NCBI GenBank assembly: GCA_009602725.1
Contig: WELB01000174.1
Span: forward strand, 282,376 to 305,209
DNA length: 22,834 nt
Source of the DNA: Spirogloea muscicola
Taxonomy: Eukaryota; Streptophyta; Zygnematophyceae; Spirogloeales; Spirogloeaceae
Reading direction: 5' to 3'
The notes beneath the pieces are model-generated. The model was not told where the DNA came from. It did not search any database and saw nothing but the letters and a program-made list of their open reading frames with translations. Made by a program: the position numbers and the translations under genes. Below, one piece after another: positions 6,468 through 19,013 of this stretch; position 1 is the first letter of the stretch; the number at the start of each line of letters is the position of its first letter.

Positions 6468-6749
6468 GGCGGCGGCGGCAACGGCGGCGGCGCCGGCGGC
6501 GGCAGAGCCTGGCGATCACTCAGTGCCACGTGGCAGAAGCTTCTTGGTCGGGCCAGGGCCCCCTTCCCTCACATGAGTGAGTTTCTGCCGTTACCAGTTA
6601 GCGCCGGTGTGGCGCCGTCAAGGTCCCCGCTAACTGCCCGCTCGGGGGCCCCCGCTAAAGCCCCCCGCCCCCGGTCCCCCATGGCCATGAGGCACGAGCT
6701 GCAGGCGCCGCCGTCGCCCGCCCGCCGCCGCGGCCGCCGCGGCCGCCGT

Positions 6750-6750
6750 N
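6750..6750. other. Ambiguous base (N), probable collapsed assembly gap
   Basis: A single N is embedded in a GC-rich GCC/GGC tract. The PCF11 frame is open from 6751 but contains no ATG in frame before the CID domain, so the PCF11 start codon and N-terminal residues are probably lost here or lie in an unrecognised upstream exon. Confidence 0.7.
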
Positions 6751-9700
6751 GGTGGAGATAGCACGTGGCGCGGAGTAGTCAGGGCTGTCAGGGCCTTAGC
6801 TCGCTCGGCCGCCGCCGCCGACGGCGGCGGCGGCGGCGGCGGCGACGACGTGGTGGCGCACTACCGCGCAGAGCTGGGGGAGCTGACGTTCAACTCCAAG
6901 CCGATCATCACGAACCTGACCATCATCGCCGGCGAGAACGCCGGCGCCGCTGCCGGCATCGCCGCCGCCGTCTGCGCGCACGTCCGCGCGTCGCCGCCCG
7001 ACCGCAAGCTCCCGGCGCTCTACCTCCTCGACTCCATCGTCAAGAACATCGGCGCCGCCTACGTCCGCCACTTCACCGGCCCCCTGCCCGAGGTCCCCCG
7101 CCACACCTTCTCGACGCCTTGTGCTTGCCGCTGTACTTGGCCTCGCAGGCCCTCCATCACTCAATACACACTCCCTCCCTCAATGCTCTCCCGCCCCCTG
7201 CCTCCCTCATCTGACTTCCTATTGCTGACACGGGGTGAGTAAGGGAAAAAGTGGCTGTCTCAAAGGGGGTGAGGGCTGTGATAGCCAGCCCGAAACGACT
7301 TGACACGGTCCGGAGGCGCGGAATGGCCGCTTTTCCAATGCTTTTCCTGTAGTAGTGTCACTTAGTAATCTTCAATCAGGAGCCGCAAGTCAAACAGACT
7401 AGCCGCCGGAACTCATTCCCCTCAACGAAAGCCAGAGGCTGCAGCTACTAGGAGCGCCCTGTGTGCCTAGCCTGTGGCTCCGCTAATATAGTCATAAGCA
7501 CCCTCAGTTATGCAGCTAAGTGGCTCTTACAGCCTCTCTTATGATACAGCCGCAGTCTATCTCCCTCCCTCCCTCCCTCCTGCCTGACTGCGCCTACGTC
7601 GTTGCGGTGGCGGCGGCGCAGGTCTTCATCGGCGCATGGCGCGCTGTGCCGCCGGGCCTGCGGCCGGCCATGCAGCACCTCTTCAAGACGTGGCGCGGCA
7701 TCTTCCCCGCGCCGCAGCTCCGCCGCATCGAGAGCGCGCTCCAGCAGGACGCGCCGCTGCCGCTGCAGCAGGTTGCCGCTGCCAATGGCCCCGCCGCCGG
7801 CCCCCCGCCGTTGGAGACCTCCGGCGGCTCCGGCCGCATCCACGTCAACCCCAAGTACATTGAGGCGCAGCACCGGCAACGCCTGGTGGGTGTGCTGACA
7901 CCAGCACCTCCTCCCGCCCTGCTGTGGCAGCCGAGCGCCAGCACCGCCCATACTCAGACCGTGACCAGAATAACCCTCAGAGCCATTTCCGCGCTTGCAG
8001 GAAGCGCAGATGAGCCCTCGGGCGGGCAAGTACCTCAACGCATACGGCGACAATGGCCGCTCCGAGAACGGGCTGCAAGGATACGCGAGCTCAGGTGCAG
8101 GCGTGGGGCCAGACCGGGCCGCAGGGGCCGCCCTGCCTGCTTATGAGGCAGACCACACCCCCATCTACAGGACAGAGCGGCCGCCGCCGCCGCCAGCGTA
8201 TGCGCGTGGGGCCAGCTACAGCGTCGCGGCACAGAGGGCCTACGGCTCGGCCTCTACGAGGAGGACCGCCGAGCCGCTGGACGATGAGCTGGAGCTGCGC
8301 GGAGGCGGGGTGCGCGCCTTCTCCGGCAGCAGCCACGGCGAGCAGCTGCCACCGGACGAGCCCGTGCGTCTCCGTGGAGCTTACACTCATGTCGTTGCCG
8401 TCAACACGTGACACTGTGCACATTGGCTCAGCAGTTAGATTTCCGTATGCTGACAGCTCCTTCGCCTTGGTACAGCAGGACCTGAGGACGCTCCTCAGGG
8501 CTCGGCGCCGTAGCGCCGGTGGCCATGGAGGAGGCGGCATGCACGAGCCTCCTTTTGCCGATGGCGGCTACTTGCAGCAGCCGCTCCCGCCTTCTCAGGT
8601 TGGCACGTTGGGATCTAGCAGAGCTGCGTGCACACATAGCCGCACACGGTATCATGGTCATCGATCAAGGTAGTCCGTCTGACACGCTCTTGGGGTCACC
8701 CTGAGCATGCTGCTGGTTGCCGTGGACAGGGGCTGCCGCTGCCGGATCTGTACCTCTCGCCGCTCCCGGACATGCAGCCGCCGGGCCCGCCGCAGCTGCA
8801 GCCACGTCCGCCGCCACCACAGCCAGAGCTGCCGTCACCGTCGGCAGAGCCGCCGCTGCACCAGCAGCAGCAGCAGCTGCTCGCGCAGCTCATGAGCCAG
8901 CTCCAGCAACGCAGCCAGGCAGCGCCGCCGGTGCCGCAGCCGCCTCCCCCCCTGCCGCCGTTGCAACCCCTGCACCAGCCCCCTCCCGCGCCACTCGACG
9001 GGTCTGCCATGCCTAACGCTGCGCAGCTCCTAGCGTCGCTCCTCTCGTCGTCGGGCTTCGCCCAGGCGCCGCAGCCCGGTCCCCCGCCGGCCATGTTCGC
9101 CACGACCGGCTCGACTCTCCCTCCTCCCTCGAACACCGGCACCGCTGCATCCTTCGCTGCGCCTCCTCCATTCCAGGCCCCTTCTGCTGCTCCTCCATCG
9201 TTCTCGGCGGCGCCTCCCACGCTGCCGCCCTTCCAGCAGCTGCCCCCGCCGAGTGCAGCCGCCCCGCAGCCGCAGCAGGGCCCGCCGCCCTCTGGTGGCC
9301 CGCCGCAGCTGTCTACCCTCCTCTCCTCCCTCATCTCTTTCGGAGTCATCCAAGCGCCCCGCGGCCCGCCGGCGCCGCCGCCCGGCAGCTTCGCCTCCTT
9401 TGGGCCGCCCATACAGCCGCCTCCGTCACCGCCCCCCCCGCTGCCGCTGGGACCCCCGCCTGTTCGTCAGCTGCTTCACGGGCCGGCCACCGTGGCGGCA
9501 GGGCCGCCAGCGGAGCTCCCCATCGGTCGCGAGTTTCGGCAGGAGGTCTTGCGTGAGCGCCACCTGAGTGTGATCTCCGCGCTGTACGATGACTTTGCAC
9601 ACCAGTGCAAGACCTGCGGCCTCCGCTTCGTCACTCAGGTGCAGACAGCACCCATTTCATTCATCTCTTACAGCCTAGCTGAAACACAGTGATTTAGTGA

Positions 9701-10346
9701 CCAACTTATGCAAAGTATCATATTCCAATGTATCTCGTCATATTCCAATGTATCTCGTTTATGTTCAGTGAAGGTGCACGACTGATGACTTTGGCAATGA
9801 TACGCTTTGTCATTGCAGGAGGAGTATGGGCGGCACCTGGATGCACACTTCCAGAAGCGGAAGCGGCAGAAGAGCGCAAAAGGCCGGTCGCGCCGCTGGT
9901 TCGTCACGCTGCAAGAGTGGCTGGCCGGCACGGCGGGCGGCACGGACGGCGAGGCCCCACCAGGCACCGCAGGCGGCGGCGTGGCGGGCTTGGTTGGCAA
10001 CACGGCCGCACTCGACGAGGACCTTGACCAGATGGCTGTGCCGGCGGATGAGGCGCATGACCGCTGCTCGCTCTGCGGCGACAAGTTTGAGGTATTCTTC
10101 AACGCCGAGGAGGATGAGTGGATGTTCCGAGGCGCAATCTACGCTGCGCAGCCAGGCGGCCCCATCGTGCACGCCAAGTGCCGCTCAGAGAGAGACGCGG
10201 CAGCCGCCAATGGAGTGACGCTGCCGTTGACTGGGCATGACGGGTTTTTGCAACCAAAGCTGGAGGGCCTTGAGGAGGTCAGCCTTGTGCAAAGCATGAG
10301 TAGCATGAGTACATGCTACAGTTGCGCTTCAGAGTGCAACTCTTGA
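6751..10346 (+). CDS. PCF11: PCF11-like cleavage/polyadenylation factor (CID domain), 5' partial
   Basis: Subunit of the pre-mRNA 3'-end cleavage machinery. It binds the phosphorylated RNA polymerase II tail through its CID and acts in cleavage and termination. Exons: 6751-7092, 7622-7885, 8001-8363, 8476-8598, 8730-9638, 9819-10346, all joining in phase 0. The CID spans exons 1-2 ([47 protein letters not shown]), followed by the conserved HVNPKYIE. Exons 3-5 encode a long Pro/Gln/Ala-rich linker. The C-terminal zinc-finger region has [43 protein letters not shown] and [12 protein letters not shown], as in human PCF11 and plant PCFS4. The frame runs 47 residues past HAKCRSER to a TGA at 10344; a GAG/GTCAGC donor at 10278 could instead lead to a further exon I did not find. 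The start is lost at the N at 6750. Confidence 0.95.
7446..7543 (+). repeat. Dispersed repeat, copy A (in PCF11 intron 1)
   Basis: About 100 bases align along their length with 15952-16047. Shared blocks in the same order include GAGCGCCCTGT, GTGG.TCCG, CACCCTC, TATGCA and TACAGCC. The two copies are clearly diverged but collinear, which suggests an old interspersed element. No coding capacity or terminal repeat is visible. Confidence 0.72.
9719..9758 (+). repeat. Perfect 20-bp tandem duplication in PCF11 intron 5
   Basis: The unit beginning CATATTCCAATG occurs twice in direct tandem without mismatch (9719-9738 and 9739-9758). It lies about 60 bases before the exon 6 acceptor, where a branch point would be expected, so the copies could bear on branch-site choice. 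Recent duplication is the simplest reading. Confidence 0.93.
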
Positions 10347-10943: not shown

Positions 10944-13900
10944 TCACTGGCCGCCCTGCCACCTGTCAAGCTCCTCAGGCGACCGTCGGGCTCTGCTGTG
11001 CAGCTGCCGGCCTTGGTTGCGAGGCTCACAGCGCTCGTCCTCGTGCCGCTGGCGGCTTGCCGCTCGCCGCTCAACCCGTGCCTTGGCGTCATGGCTGTGA
11101 GCCCGGTCGTGGTGGCTGCTTCCCCTGCTCTCCCTTTCTCTACCTCTTCCTATCGTTCTCTCGTCCGTGTCTGCTTCAGTCGAGTCCTCCCACTCGCTCT
11201 GCCCCGCCCCATGCGACCTCAGCCGCTCCTGCCTGGCGTAGTTCCCCTCCTCCCGGTCCCAAGCAACTCTATCTGACGTTTCTCCACCGAAGCGATCGGC
11301 CCTTCCGCGATCCACCTCCTTCGCCCGCCGAGGTTCTGGCACTGTGTCCAGCTCCCGTCCTTCATAGCTCTGCCGTGAATGCCCACTCCTCTGTCTCACG
11401 CGGCGATCCTCACTTTCCTGCTGAACCCTCTGGGCCCTGTGGTTGGCATTGCTGCCCAGTCTGCCTGGCCTATGCAGTGCCTCCTTGCCTTTGGGGTTGT
11501 CCACTTCGTCCACAGCAGGCCTCCCAGCTCCGTCTCTCTCACGACATACACGGTCATCCTGTTGCATCCGATCAAATTTTCTATTGATTGCTATCACATG
11601 TGTGTACCGTGTATCAAGCAATGTCGTCAGCACAATGAAGGAATCAGGGCCAATCATCCTATTCGCGCCATGAGAGGAGATCACTGGAACAGCACCAAGC
11701 AAGCAACAGATGCACTTATCAAATTCAGGCGCCAGGCGCCAGGAGTCTAGCTGCTCACATCCAGCAAGTGGCGCTCCTCACTCTCTGGGCTCCGGCGGCT
11801 GTGCGCCCCGCTCTCTGTCACACAGTGAGAAGGGCATATGAGCAACTTCAGCGATAAGTGATTCCGTATGCACCTCACGGCGTCCACTTAGTCAAATTCC
11901 AAGCTCCCGCTTCACAGATTCAAATAGACTCTTGCAACCCAGAGACAGAGATTCTAAGAGAGCTGAAATTCTAGTCCCAGCAATCAATTGCTATCACTAA
12001 CTTCAACACCACACTAGTTAGTGCCTAACTTTGACTACAGGCTAGCACCAGCTAGCACAGGGTCCATGGTTGGTACATAGATACCCATATTGTTGTTCTT
12101 TCCAAGAACATCTGACATGGCCGACATCTGCTTGTAAATGATCTCCCGCATCATCTGCCACACGTGCATTGCACCCAATTGAGTTCTTTGGACTTTGTTG
12201 CTTCGCCATAGCCCGCCGCAACGAGACTTGGGGCCGATAAGACAGAGTAGTGCTGCTTAGCTCAAGGATCGTCAGTTGCAGGCTGCTCACAGTGGTGGCC
12301 GTGCGAAGGCCATGCTTGGCACGATACGAGATGCGGCGCCGCTTATAGTCCCGCTCCTCTGCCAGTCGTTCCACTTTGCTCTTGTCCCGCTTTTCCTGCC
12401 ACGACCGACCTCAAGATATGCCATAAGTACGGTGCATGATGCAAAGACTCAGGCTTGGGAGTTGGAGGCCAACGGGCAAAGGCATGAAAACTTTGAAAAT
12501 ATTGGAAACGCTCACACTTTCAATTCTGGAGCTAAGATTTTCTGCTGTCCAGTATGAAGTCCACAAGACAATGCAGCTGTATCACGCCAGAGGTAGCCTG
12601 GACGCAAATCTGGATCAATATACAAGAAGACAATCCGATTGACAACAATAAGAGGAAGGACATCCAGCCAGATATACAGTCAAGACTGGCAGCTGCACCT
12701 TCTCGGCGGCAAGGTTGGCGTGATAAGCCGCTTCCGCAATGGAGGAGGCAGTGCTCGTCGTGGCTGGCCTCAGCCGCCGCTCGACTTCAGCGGCCTCGAC
12801 AACCTGGTCATAGCTCCTGATCCTGTTTGGACAAGCGGAAAGCCACCATCATCGTAACGCTGATGACAGTCACGGGTTACTGACTTAGTTGTTACTAAAG
12901 CTAATCAGCCGAAGAGGCGAGGCATTGCGAGGATGCACAGAGCCGTTCAACTGAGACCGGGCGCATGGCCCACCACTGACCATTCGGCAGCAGCCGTGTC
13001 AGGAAGGCCCTCCTTGCGGTGCCGGGCAGCGAGTGCGAGCTCGTAGAAGCTCGTCAGCGCCTTGGCAACGTTACTGCCGCCGCTGCCTTGCTCTGCAGTT
13101 GCTTCTCCAAGCGGCGAGTACAGCTCCAGCTCATCTGATTCTGAGATACCAAAAAAGCGTGGTATCAGAACGGGAGAGCAGCGGAATGACTGGAATGTGA
13201 CAGATCTAAGTCTTGATCTTGGAACTGGCAAAGATTGGGCGCACACCAAAGCCTTCAATCATTAAGGATCTGTGATATCAAAGAACTCAGGTGCAAGTAG
13301 AGCCCACTGCACCGGTGCTGCTGTCACGGAGGGCGGTGGTGCGTAAGAGAAGGTGCTGAAGCAGCGCCAGGGTGGTGGCGACAGCGGTGGCCGGGCTGCA
13401 GAGCGCCGCCGCGTGGCTGGCGAGCCAGCGGGCCTGCTCGGCCAGGACAGGGCATGGGATGGGTTTGCTGCCGCCGCTGCCAGGCATGGCCGCCGCTGCC
13501 TCCATGGCCACGCATCCAAGTGCCACCCGAACGAGCGTGGCAAAGCAGGCGGCTGCAATCGGCGGTAGCCAAGCGGCCGCCAGTGCCAGCACGGCCGCCT
13601 CAACGTCGCAGATCGCCAGCCTTGGCAGAGCCACTGCAGCACAGCAGTGGACGGCCCATCAGGAGGCGAGCAAGCAAGCGAGTGCGTTGGCCTGGGCTGC
13701 AGCAAATGCAGCGAGTGCCAGGCAGCGCCAGCATCGCGGCGCACCTACGACAGCGGCAACCGTCGGGCTGTATGCCAGCGGGACAGCCTGCCAGCCAGCG
13801 ATCTCGCGATCGGCCTGCCACAGCTGCGCGGCTGACAGCGCCACCGCCCCGCCCGGACCTGCAGACTCCTGTCATGTGTTCGGGACCGAAGCGGCACTTA

Positions 13901-14684
13901 AGGCCAGGGCTTCACCAGATCTATTGGGTTTGCGTGAAAAGCAGCGCCTGGCTCAGAGATCAGCTGAGACGCAACCGGCGTCAGGGAGATACACATCGTC
14001 TTGCCATTGGAGCTGCAGCCCTCAACAGTGGTTGGCAGCCACCTGGCTGTGGCGGTCGACCTGAAGGCGCCTCTCCTCGATATCCCGCAACTCCGTATCG
14101 CGCCTCGCAAGGAGCTCTAGTGTGGCGCCGCTGCGGACAGTGACGGCGCTGGGGGCCCTCTGGGCAGGCCGCTCGGAGGCAGGCCGCCGTCAGCGGCGAC
14201 CTAGACAATCGCCAGCAATGCCGCCGCCGCCGCCCCCGGCAGCCGCAGCGGCAGTCGGCGACTGGCTGAGAGCTGCACCTCGTAGAAGAAGGCCGAGCTC
14301 TCCCAGTCTTCAATAGGCAGAGCGGGGCCAAGAAATGGGTTTTCACGTTTCTGGCTGCAATAGAAGACGCCAATAGATCACCGTCTTAACCACACACCGG
14401 CGGCGGGCCCGGCGGCGGCTGCGGCGGCAGCGACGGCGGCGGCGGCGGCGGAGACGGCGGCGGTCTCACTTCCCGATATCATTATGAGAATCTTCCACTA
14501 TTCACTGAGAGTTGGTTCTAGTACAGTTGTGGCGAATTGCGGCGATTCAACGGCGGCGGCGGACTGCTTACCGGCAGGCCTCGGCGTGCGCGTAAATGGC
14601 GGCAGGCGGCAGCCGGTGCGCGGCGTCGTGCGGGCACGCCACGAGCAGCGGGCGCCGCGCGAGCAGCACTGCGCCAGCGGCCAT
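10944..14684 (-). CDS. SNRNP48: U11/U12 di-snRNP 48 kDa protein (minor spliceosome), CHHC zinc finger
   Basis: U11-48K recognises the 5' splice site of U12-type introns within the U11/U12 di-snRNP. Exons in transcript order: 14684-14572, 14354-14207, 14159-14061, 14012-13976, 13858-13745, 13633-13313, 13134-12977, 12803-12699, 12395-12291, 12154-12085, 11814-11759, 11558-10944; all phases close (1941 nt, 646 aa). Residues 17-37 show C17-x5-H23-x9-H33-x3-C37, the exact spacing of the U11-48K CHHC finger, around PHDAAHRLPP and AIYAHAEAC. Further family-like blocks are FFYEVQLSASRRLP, PCPVLAEQARWLASHAAALC, and RLAEERDYKRRRISYRAK, which resembles the plant 48K segment before its charged tail. The tail is about 200 residues rich in RE/RD/RS dipeptides. 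Least certain are the 37-nt exon at 14012-13976 with its 48-nt intron, and the donor at 12976 (12973 is an alternative). All donors are GT. Confidence 0.85.
12035..12085 (-). other. Alternative 3' end by retention of U11-48K intron 10
   Basis: If the donor at 12084 (GG/GTATCT) is not used, the frame continues for about 16 codons to a TAG at 12035-12037, ending PVLAGASL. That product would keep the finger and the KRRRISYRAK block but lose the whole RE/RD tail encoded downstream. This reading is directly visible; whether it is used is unknown. Confidence 0.45.
14397..14464. repeat. GGC-rich triplet tract in U11-48K intron 1
   Basis: Imperfect GGC/GCG triplets with interruptions run through the intron between exons 1 and 2 (14571-14355). 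The tract is coding-like in several frames but is excluded because exons 1 and 2 join in phase around it. Confidence 0.85.
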
Positions 14685-16047: not shown

Positions 16048-17150
16048 CAACATCAGCAGTTGCATTCTTTTTCCACGCCCTCAGGCGAGCTCCGTTCACA
16101 TACGCCATGTATGTGGCCACCTCTCGCACTACACTGACGCTCTCTCGGGCCTTGCTTATGGAATGCCTGGATCCTGCCCGTGGCAACCGAGCTCATCACA
16201 GCCCCATTAATCATAGTGCGCGTGGGCTGGTCTTCTGCAGCCACCTGCCTATGGTAACCAATTCCATTGCATCCACTACATTCATTGCATCCTTCTGGCA
16301 ATGGAAGCAGGGTGAGCACCACGGGCTGCTCACCCGCGTGCTCGCTGGATCTGGTTCACTGCATGCGTCTCTACGTCGTGCTGCAGCTTTCCAAGCTTTC
16401 ACCTTGCAATTTCGTGGCCATGCCTTGGCTGTCGCCCCAATTTGGCGAGTCACTCTCTACTGCTTATTCATCTGACTTGCGGCTATTGACCATGGGATTT
16501 CGCTGCGGCTATTAAGAGTATACGCTTCTTCTGCCGAAGTGCATCGTGCTTCCGTTTGGGCTTCCCTGGACTTTGTCTTTCTTTCCCGCTGGCCTTTCAC
16601 TATCACTGCCTCCTCTTGGAGTAGCCTTTTCTCTGCAGCTCTGCAATTCCCTGCAAAGCGCGGAGTTATGCCAAAGTCGCAGCAGGGGCCAAGGGGCAGG
16701 AAGTAACACCTCATTGACAGACCTAAAAAGTCGAAGGGAGAACACAGTCTGTCACTTGACATATTGAGGGGGATGACGGCTTTGCCATCAGCACTACATT
16801 GGACATCTGCAATCCTTTCAATCTACGGGCGAGCACTTTCTTTCATTCGGTACAGATATTCATACCTGACTGTCTTGACCCTCCAAGTCGGAGGACATAT
16901 GGTAAGAAGCAAGCGCGGCCAGATTAACTGGTCGCTGGGAGAGGCCAGCACAAAGGAACGGACAAGGTCTGAAGGAGCCGGAGTGCTAAGGACTGAGACA
17001 GCAGCAAGCGGACTCTCAGTAACCTCTAGTCAGTAGATGCAAATCTAAATAGCTAGCAATATCGTAAGCCGTTGTAAACAGAAATCTGAGGCTTGGCTGG
17101 CCCTGCCACTACCACTATACTGGAAGCACAGATCCAGAACAGGAATCTGG

Positions 17151-17151
17151 N
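17151..17151. other. Ambiguous base (N) at a probable assembly gap in the RRP9 gene
   Basis: The WD40 frame begins immediately after this N, inside a GC-rich imperfect repeat of CGCCCACCTCGG. The N-terminal region and first WD repeat of RRP9 are absent on its left. A single N probably stands for an unresolved gap, so the sequence left of it may not be truly adjacent. Confidence 0.7.
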
Positions 17152-17152
17152 C

Positions 17153-19013
17153 GCCGGTGGTGGGCGCCCACCTCGGAGGCGCCCACCTCGGCCGCCGAGC
17201 CGCCACGTCCTGGCCATGGACGTCTCGTCCGACGGGCGCTACCTGGCGGTGGGCGGCCACGACCGCGCCATCCACGTCTGGGACCTCCGCACCGACGCCC
17301 ACGTCCAGGCCTTCTCGGGCCACCGCGGCGCCGTCGCCGGCCTCGCCTTCCGCCGCGGCACGCACCAGCTCTTCTCGGCGTCGTTCGACCGCAGCGTCAA
17401 GATCTGGACGCTCGACGACATGGCGTACATGGACTCGCTGTACGGCCACCAGAGCGAGGTCGTGGCCATCGACTGCCTGCACCAGGAGCGCGCCCTCTCG
17501 GCGGGCCGTGATCGCACCTGCCGTATCTGGAAGGTACAGAATATAAACTCAGTAATGGTACCGCGGATAAATTCTAACGTCTACCATAAAAAGGGGTTAC
17601 TAGTAAATGGAATATCAGCAAAAAATGACTAAGGATCAGATTCCTCCAAGGTTAGGGAGCTTGCTTTTACACTGGTGTCTTTGTTACTGCAGGTGCCAGA
17701 TGAAACGCAGCTGGTGTTTCGGGGCCACTCGGCGTCCATTGATTGCTGCAAGTTTCTCACCGGCAATGAGTACATCACGGGCTCCGAGGACGGCTCTGTG
17801 GCCCTGTGGACTGTGCAGCGCAAGAAGCCTGTCCACGTTGTGCGGCGCGCCCACGGCGCTGCTGTTGCCATGAAGGTATGCCATGGGCAGTGTCACTTGC
17901 GCATGAGGGACAAGGAAGGAAAGTTGCAAATTTATCTCGGAGATTTTTTTGAGCAGGCTTGACAAGGGCCTCTGTGCAACTCAGTGGCATGAGAACGTCA
18001 AGCCACTGGTATTGGGTGTCGGGTGTCTATTTCCATCTGATAGCTCGTTACTTGGTGCTACATGTAATATTACCAGGATGGTGAGGACGGTCTGCGGGAA
18101 GCTGAAAACGAGAATGACAGTGACGCGGAGGAGGCCGTTGAGGAGGGACCCAGGCACCTGCATCATGAAGCCGCAGTTGCCAATGGAGGACCGTCGCATG
18201 CATCTCCGCAAACGACAGCAGACGCGATGGTGGGAGGCGCGGCAGAGGCCTGGGTTGGCGCCGTCGCTGTCTGCGCCGGAAGCGACATGGCCGCGAGCGG
18301 CGCGGGCGACGGCGCCATCCGGTTGTGGCAGGTCGAGGATGGCAAGCAGCGGCGCCTCAAGCCACTCTTCTCGCTTCCTACGGTACGTGCATCGTCACCA
18401 AGGATGGTTCAGATTTTCAACTCAGGGTTTCAAACTCAAGGGCTAGAGATCCCGTTTCCATGGCATTTAGGACTCTTCAGGTCAGGGCCATGCACGATGT
18501 AACCTGCTGAAGCACTTACTATACAGATAGTTTTGGCTAATTGATACACATGGTATAGGCTAATCGGTACACTCTCAGGGTGATGGATGGTAGACTATAA
18601 CCATTGGGCTCAGTCAAGCTTGTCGTATGCCGCATGTGGTGCTCCGCAGAAGGGGTTTGTCAATGCGTTGGCATTTGCCCACAGCGGCAAGTTCCTCCTT
18701 GCCGGCACCGGTCAGGTGCGACGCGAAAAGGATTTTAGAAGCTCGCCTCTATTGTTGCCCCAACTTTGATTGATCTATTACGGCATAGCAATTAACGTGA
18801 TTATAAAAGATGCCCTTTAGTTGAGAAGGACTTCTTAAGACAAGGACCATGCAGAGGCTTCGCTAAGGAGCTGCACCTGACGCACTGCTTGCACCGTATC
18901 CTGACGAGGACTTCTGCTTTCTGGACCTCCAGGAGCCACGGCTTGGGCGGTGGGCCAAGATTGCGCATGCAAGGAATGGCGTCATATTGCACCCAATCAC
19001 GCTGGACCTATAG
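17153..19013 (+). CDS. RRP9: RRP9 / U3-55K, U3 snoRNP WD40 protein (5' partial)
   Basis: U3 snoRNP-specific WD40 protein of the nucleolus, needed for 18S rRNA processing in the SSU processome. Exons: 17153-17533, 17693-17875, 18077-18382, 18650-18715 and 18933-19013, all phase 0 (1017 nt, 338 residues). WD repeats are clear: SSDGRYLAVGGHDRAIHVWD, then SASFDRSVKIWTLDD, GHQSEVVAIDC with LSAGRDRTCRIWK, SGSEDGSVALW-like ITGSEDGSVALWTV, then ASGAGDGAIRLWQVED and FVNALAFAHSGKFLLAGTGQ. The RRP9-specific ending EPRLGRWAKIAHARNGVILH is present. An acidic insertion (ENENDSDAEEAVEEG) precedes the sixth repeat, where plant RRP9 also has a divergent loop. Around 150-200 N-terminal residues expected for the family, including the first WD repeat, are missing at the N at 17151. 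All four donors are GT. Confidence 0.93.

Follow-up and report, generated by a model that had tools for sequence, protein, structure and literature searches.

Gene structure at the locus

We analysed a 22,834-nucleotide stretch of DNA (contig WELB01000174.1, positions 282,376 to 305,209 of the forward strand; hereafter the window). On its minus strand, from position 14684 to 10944, lies the intact gene of the minor-spliceosome protein U11-48K. The gene model comprises 11 exons and encodes 626 residues. Together with RNA genes and introns elsewhere in the genome, it leaves us highly confident that the U11-48K gene is functional and belongs to a streptophyte alga (probably a zygnematophyte with triplicated genes), accompanied by further parts of the minor spliceosome. 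An initial annotation had called a U11-48K gene at exactly 10944-14684, and both the identity and the bounds held: the ATG lies at 14684, the stop codon at 10944, and the predicted protein matches human U11-48K with an E-value of 4.7e-9. The exon limits rest on base-by-base alignment of the window copy with a second copy on another contig of the assembly (C151), after which a first model of 10 exons was replaced by the present one. The features, in order of transcription, are as follows.

10944..14684, minus strand: U11-48K gene, 11 exons, 626 residues; two-copy exon alignment with consistent phases, and a PDB match to human U11-48K
14572..14684, minus strand: exon A, carrying the start codon as well as the CHHC zinc finger (C-x5-H-x9-H-x3-C); aligned to the fingers of 2vy4 and 8r7n
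14279..14354, minus strand: exon B, ending in DWESSAFFYE; aligned to the human FFYE region
14043..14159, minus strand: exon C; kept in the C151 copy
13745..13868, minus strand: exon D; two-copy alignment and model
13313..13633, minus strand: exon E, whose 3' boundary is the least certain; two-copy alignment and model
12981..13140, minus strand: exon F; two-copy alignment and model
12699..12822, minus strand: exon G, containing SYDQVVEAAEVERR; aligned to human 48K
12291..12395, minus strand: exon H, with the LAEERDYKRRRISYRAK block that singles out 48K; alignment to 48K, and low nonsynonymous divergence between copies
12085..12154, minus strand: exon I; two-copy alignment and model
11815..12084, minus strand: intron starting with GTATCTATG in both copies, the nearest to a U12-type donor in the gene
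11759..11814, minus strand: exon I2; discovered by conservation with the C151 copy
10944..11558, minus strand: exon J, arginine-rich R/E/D tail and stop codon; gene model and residue count

All ten introns are GT-AG. The motifs TATCCTT, ATATCC and GTATCC were found in neither 48K copy, so no 48K intron has the usual U12-type donor, in agreement with the initial annotation, and no strict branch site was seen in the intron at 12084-11815. Likewise, neither copy showed a tandem TATCCTT element, the USSE by which 48K genes of animals and plants are autoregulated.

Identity of the encoded protein

The finger CPHDAAHRLPPAAIYAHAEAC occupies residues 17-37 of the predicted protein and the LAEERDYKRRRISYRAK block residues 356-372, and 42 of the 204 residues of the tail are arginine (21%, against 9% in the remainder); the block and the R/E/D-rich tail had been described correctly beforehand. 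The finger pattern occurs once in the six reading frames of the window and at least once in 8 of 200 triplet shuffles. The protein was compared with 177,635 PDB sequences using phmmer, with matches listed at E ≤ 10. Three sequences were matched, of which only human U11-48K was significant: chain F of 8r7n, from structures of the U11 small nuclear ribonucleoprotein (snRNP), aligned over two stretches (E 4.7e-9), followed by the isolated U11-48K finger 2vy4 (E 0.18) and by GTSF1 (6x46; E 6). A profile built from the two algal copies gave 3.7e-10 for 8r7n chain F, 0.36 for 2vy4, 0.38 for the unrelated 2nx9 and 1.8 for GTSF1, and the reversed query gave no PDB match at E ≤ 10. The LAE-RDYKRRR-SYRAK region forms the second domain of the 8r7n match, with an independent E-value of 2.4e-5 from the single query and 2.5e-7 from the two-copy profile.

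The finger has the human spacing, as noted at the outset, but this spacing is not specific to 48K: in the phmmer alignment the GTSF1 fingers show the same C-x5-H-x9-H-x3-C, and finger spacing therefore cannot part 48K from other CHHC proteins. What singles out 48K in the predicted protein is the LAEERDYKRRRISYRAK block, the score of the whole protein and the order of finger, FFYE region and block. The Pfam model zf-U11-48K speaks against the assignment, as it matched nothing in the genome at E ≤ 1e-3 and nothing in the protein at E ≤ 1; this model spans 25 positions and covers other CHHC proteins too, and since it is shared in this way it was not counted as defining for 48K. TRMT13 carries a methyltransferase domain, and it is by this domain that it is set apart here. 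That the protein belongs instead to another CHHC family, either the TRMT13 tRNA methyltransferases or the gametocyte-specific factors, is very improbable: the identical spacing in GTSF1 and a Pfam scan of 437 residues that gave no domain at E ≤ 1 would allow it, but 48K far outscores GTSF1 (E 4.7e-9 versus 6), GTSF1 has two tandem CHHC fingers in 6x46 where the window protein has one, the same scan showed no methyltransferase domain, and the RDYKRRR-SYRAK block aligns with 48K.

The predicted protein is thus named U11-48K; it adds one more protein to an established family, as could be expected in this lineage. It has the CHHC spacing, the FFYE region and the RDYKRRR-SYRAK block in common with human U11-48K (SNRNP48; 8r7n chain F, 2vy4), which has 339 residues, whereas the algal protein, with 626, adds a long middle region and the arginine-rich tail. 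Arabidopsis U11-48K is described in PMC4892727 as a protein of 714 residues with an N-terminal CX5HX9HX3C finger and an arginine-rich C-terminal half; by that description, the algal protein resembles it in length, finger and tail. Unlike Arabidopsis, the alga has two 48K copies.

A second 48K copy under constraint

A protein search of the genome with 48K gave 17 matches, nine to the window copy and eight to the second intact copy on C151 (160316-164029, plus strand). Neither copy is interrupted between its start and stop codons, and the two share the same 11 exons, with GT-AG introns in matching phases. Amino-acid identity between them is 84% over 623 codons. By the NG86 method, the nonsynonymous divergence (dN) between the copies is 0.082 and the synonymous divergence (dS) 0.203, giving a dN/dS of 0.40. 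Codons 300-400, which include the RDYKRRR block, have a dN of 0.013 against a dS of 0.138.

Minor-spliceosome small nuclear RNAs

The genome was searched for the small nuclear RNAs (snRNAs) of the minor spliceosome using Rfam models and cut-offs, with 14 control genomes, none of which gave a U12, U6atac or U11 match over the cut-off. All three U12 matches were over the cut-off and full length (81.1, 80.1 and 80.1 bits; 42 of 1707 candidates scored). For U6atac, three of the four matches were over the cut-off and the fourth was U6 (46 of 5506 candidates scored). The U6atac genes found with Rfam are:

C40:67983-68101, minus strand
C294:115190-115309, minus strand
C69:305419-305538, minus strand

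All four U11 matches were over the cut-off (39 of 3632 candidates scored), and three of them, on contigs C42, C8 and C39, are good genes. The fourth (C439:1913-2051, minus strand) has more changes and is without the upstream TATCCCA element; it is probably a pseudogene.

The gene bodies are more uniform among the three copies than their flanks. Invariant columns make up 158 of 161 in U12, 106 of 112 in U6atac and 131 of 140 in U11, compared with 56 of 91, 50 of 91 and 53 of 92, respectively, in the 90 bases upstream. Nevertheless, TTATCCCA or ATATCCCA stands at about -69 to -78 in nine of the ten snRNA copies, that is, in all nine good ones, and TATATAA lies at -31 or -32 in all three U12 genes. 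Plant snRNA genes have an upstream sequence element, which the TATCCCA-type element found here resembles. U12 retains an intact branch-pairing segment, GUAAGGAAAA, and the three good U11 copies start with AUAAAGGG and keep AAAGG, through which U11 base-pairs to the 5' splice site. In the same three copies the stretch at the Sm site is unusual, with AAUUUGUGG or AAUUUGUUG replacing AAUUUUUG.

U12-type introns

Two patterns were used to search the genome for U12-type introns. Pattern 1 combined a U12-type donor, required to be TATCCTTT, with a branch site, and was controlled by the reversed pattern. It gave six hits against four in the control, no clear excess, and this count alone proves nothing. 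Because the pattern demanded TATCCTTT, the introns that it gave cannot show what 5' splice sites are typical. Three of the six hits are homologous and fall in the same gene on C58, C90 and C155. These introns, of 138, 147 and 149 bases, start with ATATCCTTTC and end with TCCTTGACACAAGCCCAC, and both signals are invariant in the three copies (10 of 10 and 18 of 18 positions), while only 88 of 121 columns are invariant in the intron body. AT-AC joining leaves the exons in frame; the junction reads GVSVALSCALLFKYAGLSVY in two copies and, in the third, GVSVALLCALLFKYAGLSVY. Exon sequence joined by eye matches Pfam Na_H_Exchanger over its cut-off (E 8.4e-7) and, in the PDB, the sodium/hydrogen exchanger 6z3z (E 5.6e-7) and NHE6 and NHE9 (6.8e-7), with NHE1 trailing well behind (0.12), and we refer to the gene as NHX-like. 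Arabidopsis NHX6 appears among the U12 intron-containing transcripts listed in PMC3422263.

A second candidate AT-AC intron of U12 type, with ATATCCTTTC and TCCTTGAC, lies between coding exons, as judged by eye, at C44:575200-576300; the gene had no Pfam match. The branch sites of the two introns from pattern 1 are GTCCTTGAC and CTCCTTGAC. A hit of the same pattern on C59 was set aside, as a T precedes its TATCC and it lies inside an apparently ordinary intron. The sixth hit lies on C256.

Pattern 2, open at +6 to +9 and requiring TTCCTTRAC, gave 52 hits in 50 distinct places against 60 in the reversed-pattern controls. This null result is weak, because the TTCCTTRAC requirement misses both introns from pattern 1. 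The two of the 52 hits that contain TATCCTT were inspected by eye, and neither looked U12-type. The search for U12-type donors that the initial annotation had proposed thus yielded an NHX-like intron in three copies and no clear excess over controls.

Probable activity of the minor spliceosome

Several results count against a functional gene and a working machinery, among them the failure to find U4atac. Rfam gave no U4atac match (48 of 1771 candidates scored, in an assembly that may have gaps). Three patterns designed from the required pairing to the algal U6atac and the K-turn fared no better: the first had no hits in the genome, the second had eight against 26 in controls, none U4atac-like by eye, and the third had 12 against four in controls. 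Rfam models run on all 12 loci of the third pattern (about 350 bases each) returned a single weak match, to mir-623, and none to U4atac; by eye, the sequence at two of these loci (C111 and C187) looks protein-coding. The intron counts of both patterns and a change in U6atac, described below, point the same way. As to the 48K gene itself, YN00 gives a dN of 0.089 and a dS of 0.169, a higher ratio than NG86; the tail is weakly constrained (codons 400-623; dN 0.112 against dS 0.172); and the protein search of the genome showed two copies, with no third.

The minor spliceosome could, on these grounds, be a decaying relic, in which the genes persist with few or no dependent introns and U4atac has been lost. 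The failure of the Rfam scan and of three patterns to find U4atac, the lack of a clear excess of U12-type introns (pattern 2 being a weak test) and the altered U6atac would all fit. We regard this as unlikely, however: each of the three snRNAs has three near-identical copies with conserved promoter-like elements, two 48K copies are intact with a dN/dS of 0.40, and the splice signals of the NHX-like intron are invariant while its body varies.

An active minor spliceosome is, in our reading of these sequences, very probable. In it, the putative U11-48K would bind the U12-type 5' splice site within the U11 snRNP, U12 would pair with the branch site (TCCTTRAY), and U6atac would take over from U11 for catalysis; we infer that these parts are expressed and splice U12-type introns. 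The earlier proposal that an intact 48K gene implies U12-type splicing is borne out as far as U11, U12, U6atac and a conserved U12-type intron in the genome are concerned, whereas the fourth RNA that was to be sought, U4atac, did not come to light.

An altered U6atac

The three U6atac genes are identical in their first 60 bases and read UGAGCCGAGAGAAGG, where the Rfam consensus has UGAAAGGAGAGAAGG. Positions 12-14 are GCC instead of AAG in all three, and positions 6-8 also depart from the consensus. The occurrence in three genes makes the GCC change well supported as real. Positions 12-14 lie where U6atac pairs with the 5' splice site, while the U12-type introns identified here retain ATATCCTTTC. 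The predicted pairing of U6atac with ATATCCTTTC weakens from -8.2 kcal/mol for the consensus to -4.1 kcal/mol here, what remains being in another register, while that of U11 with ATATCCTTTC is not lowered (-4.9 for the consensus and -6.0 here). A hypothetical ATATCGGTTC donor would be predicted to pair at -9.8 with the algal U6atac and at -0.4 with the algal U11. Three of the 52 pattern-2 hits start with TATCGG, by estimate not above what base composition gives.

In human cells, G14 and G15 of U6atac pair with C5 and C6 of the U12-type donor, and a CC5/6GG donor is partially rescued by U6atac GG14/15CC and nearly fully when a U11 partner mutant is added (PMC4980772). It is conceivable, and we put it forward only tentatively, as somewhat less probable than its opposite, that the algal minor spliceosome selects 5' splice sites in an altered way. 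The GCC change would abolish the C6-G14 pair of U6atac with RTATCCTTT and, if this helix is extended, the U7-A13 pair as well, while recognition of CCTTT by U11 would be unaffected. If U4atac is lost or too diverged to recognise, U6atac might take over from U11 by way of a shorter helix, a register shift or a larger contribution from proteins.

Lineage of the genome

On C392, the plastid contig (56,897 bases as assembled), matK stands directly upstream of psbA (MatK_N 97 bits, Intron_maturas2 77 bits), an arrangement known from land plants and the algae related to them. tRNA-His(gtg) follows psbA; trnK was not detected on this contig. Photosystem proteins were compared with PDB entries. The best match of psaB was 8htu, presumably a moss photosystem I entry, at 1627 bits. 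A group including entries taken as Arabidopsis, pea and maize reached 1583-1594 bits; 4y28, 2wsc and 3lw5, presumably older pea models, 1529-1537; 9kqp, 1536; and 6zzx, 6igz and 6ijj, presumably chlorophyte entries (6ijj being Chlamydomonas), at most 1524, about 100 bits under 8htu. The best match of psaA was also 8htu, but 6ijj scored 1605 bits, on par with the presumed land-plant entries. D1 (psbA) was closest to 9i4t, 7oui and others (772-777 bits), with 6kac, presumably a Chlamydomonas entry, at 748.5. All eight nuclear psaA/psaB-like fragments (inside contigs C74, C93, C136, C17, C22, C36, C148 and C132) match the plastid at 77-98.6%, one of them at 98.6% over 72 bases, and so tie the nucleus to this plastid.

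Because matK adjoins psbA and psaA and psaB are closest to presumed moss entries, the lineage is placed in the Streptophyta and not among the chlorophytes, and on these markers the genome is that of a streptophyte alga. The first call of a green-algal genome, set against the loss in Chlamydomonas, was off in this respect. There is scarcely any chance that the contig is chlorophyte and its 48K the first minor-spliceosome protein of that group: the green-algal call from sequence and the psaA score of 6ijj lean that way, but the matK-psbA order, a psaB score about 100 bits over the best presumed chlorophyte entry and the match of all eight nuclear fragments to this plastid do not. U12, U6atac, the good U11 genes and the NHX-like gene are each present in three copies. 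A genome triplication is reported for Spirogloea muscicola in PMC7994812, and the triplicated genes fit that species, which they suggest as the source.

Neighbouring genes

In a Pfam scan of the surroundings, which covered 30 of the 127 open frames of at least 75 residues outside the 48K gene, two further features were seen.

6691-10343, plus strand: CID domain and PCFS4-type zinc finger in neighbouring frames that probably make up a single gene for a Pcf11-like cleavage factor
17090-17629, plus strand: exon of a WD40-repeat protein

Relation to published work and implications

An older survey found no minor introns in green algae, Chlamydomonas being the species tested (PMC2846911). Larue and Roy give 166 minor introns for Chara braunii and 110 for Klebsormidium nitens (PMC10639083). 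These are streptophyte algae with minor introns, as is the alga described here, in which U6atac is altered and no U4atac was found. Within the library searched, no paper joined minor introns with Zygnematophyceae and, since 2018, none dealt with the minor spliceosome and U12 in Chlorophyta. The initial annotation expected the gene to inform when the minor spliceosome was lost in Chlamydomonas-type green algae. That expectation falls away with the assignment to Streptophyta, and since minor introns had already been reported in Chara and Klebsormidium, the account of loss in chlorophytes is unchanged.

The present data add another streptophyte alga to those with a minor spliceosome, by way of its 48K and three of the four snRNAs, a result consistent with retention of the minor spliceosome in the branch of the green lineage that leads to land plants. 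Specialists will most want to follow up the altered U6atac: it would offer a natural test of how far the minor spliceosome needs pairing between U6atac and the 5' splice site, a matter studied in PMC4980772 with engineered mutants such as U6atac GG14/15CC.

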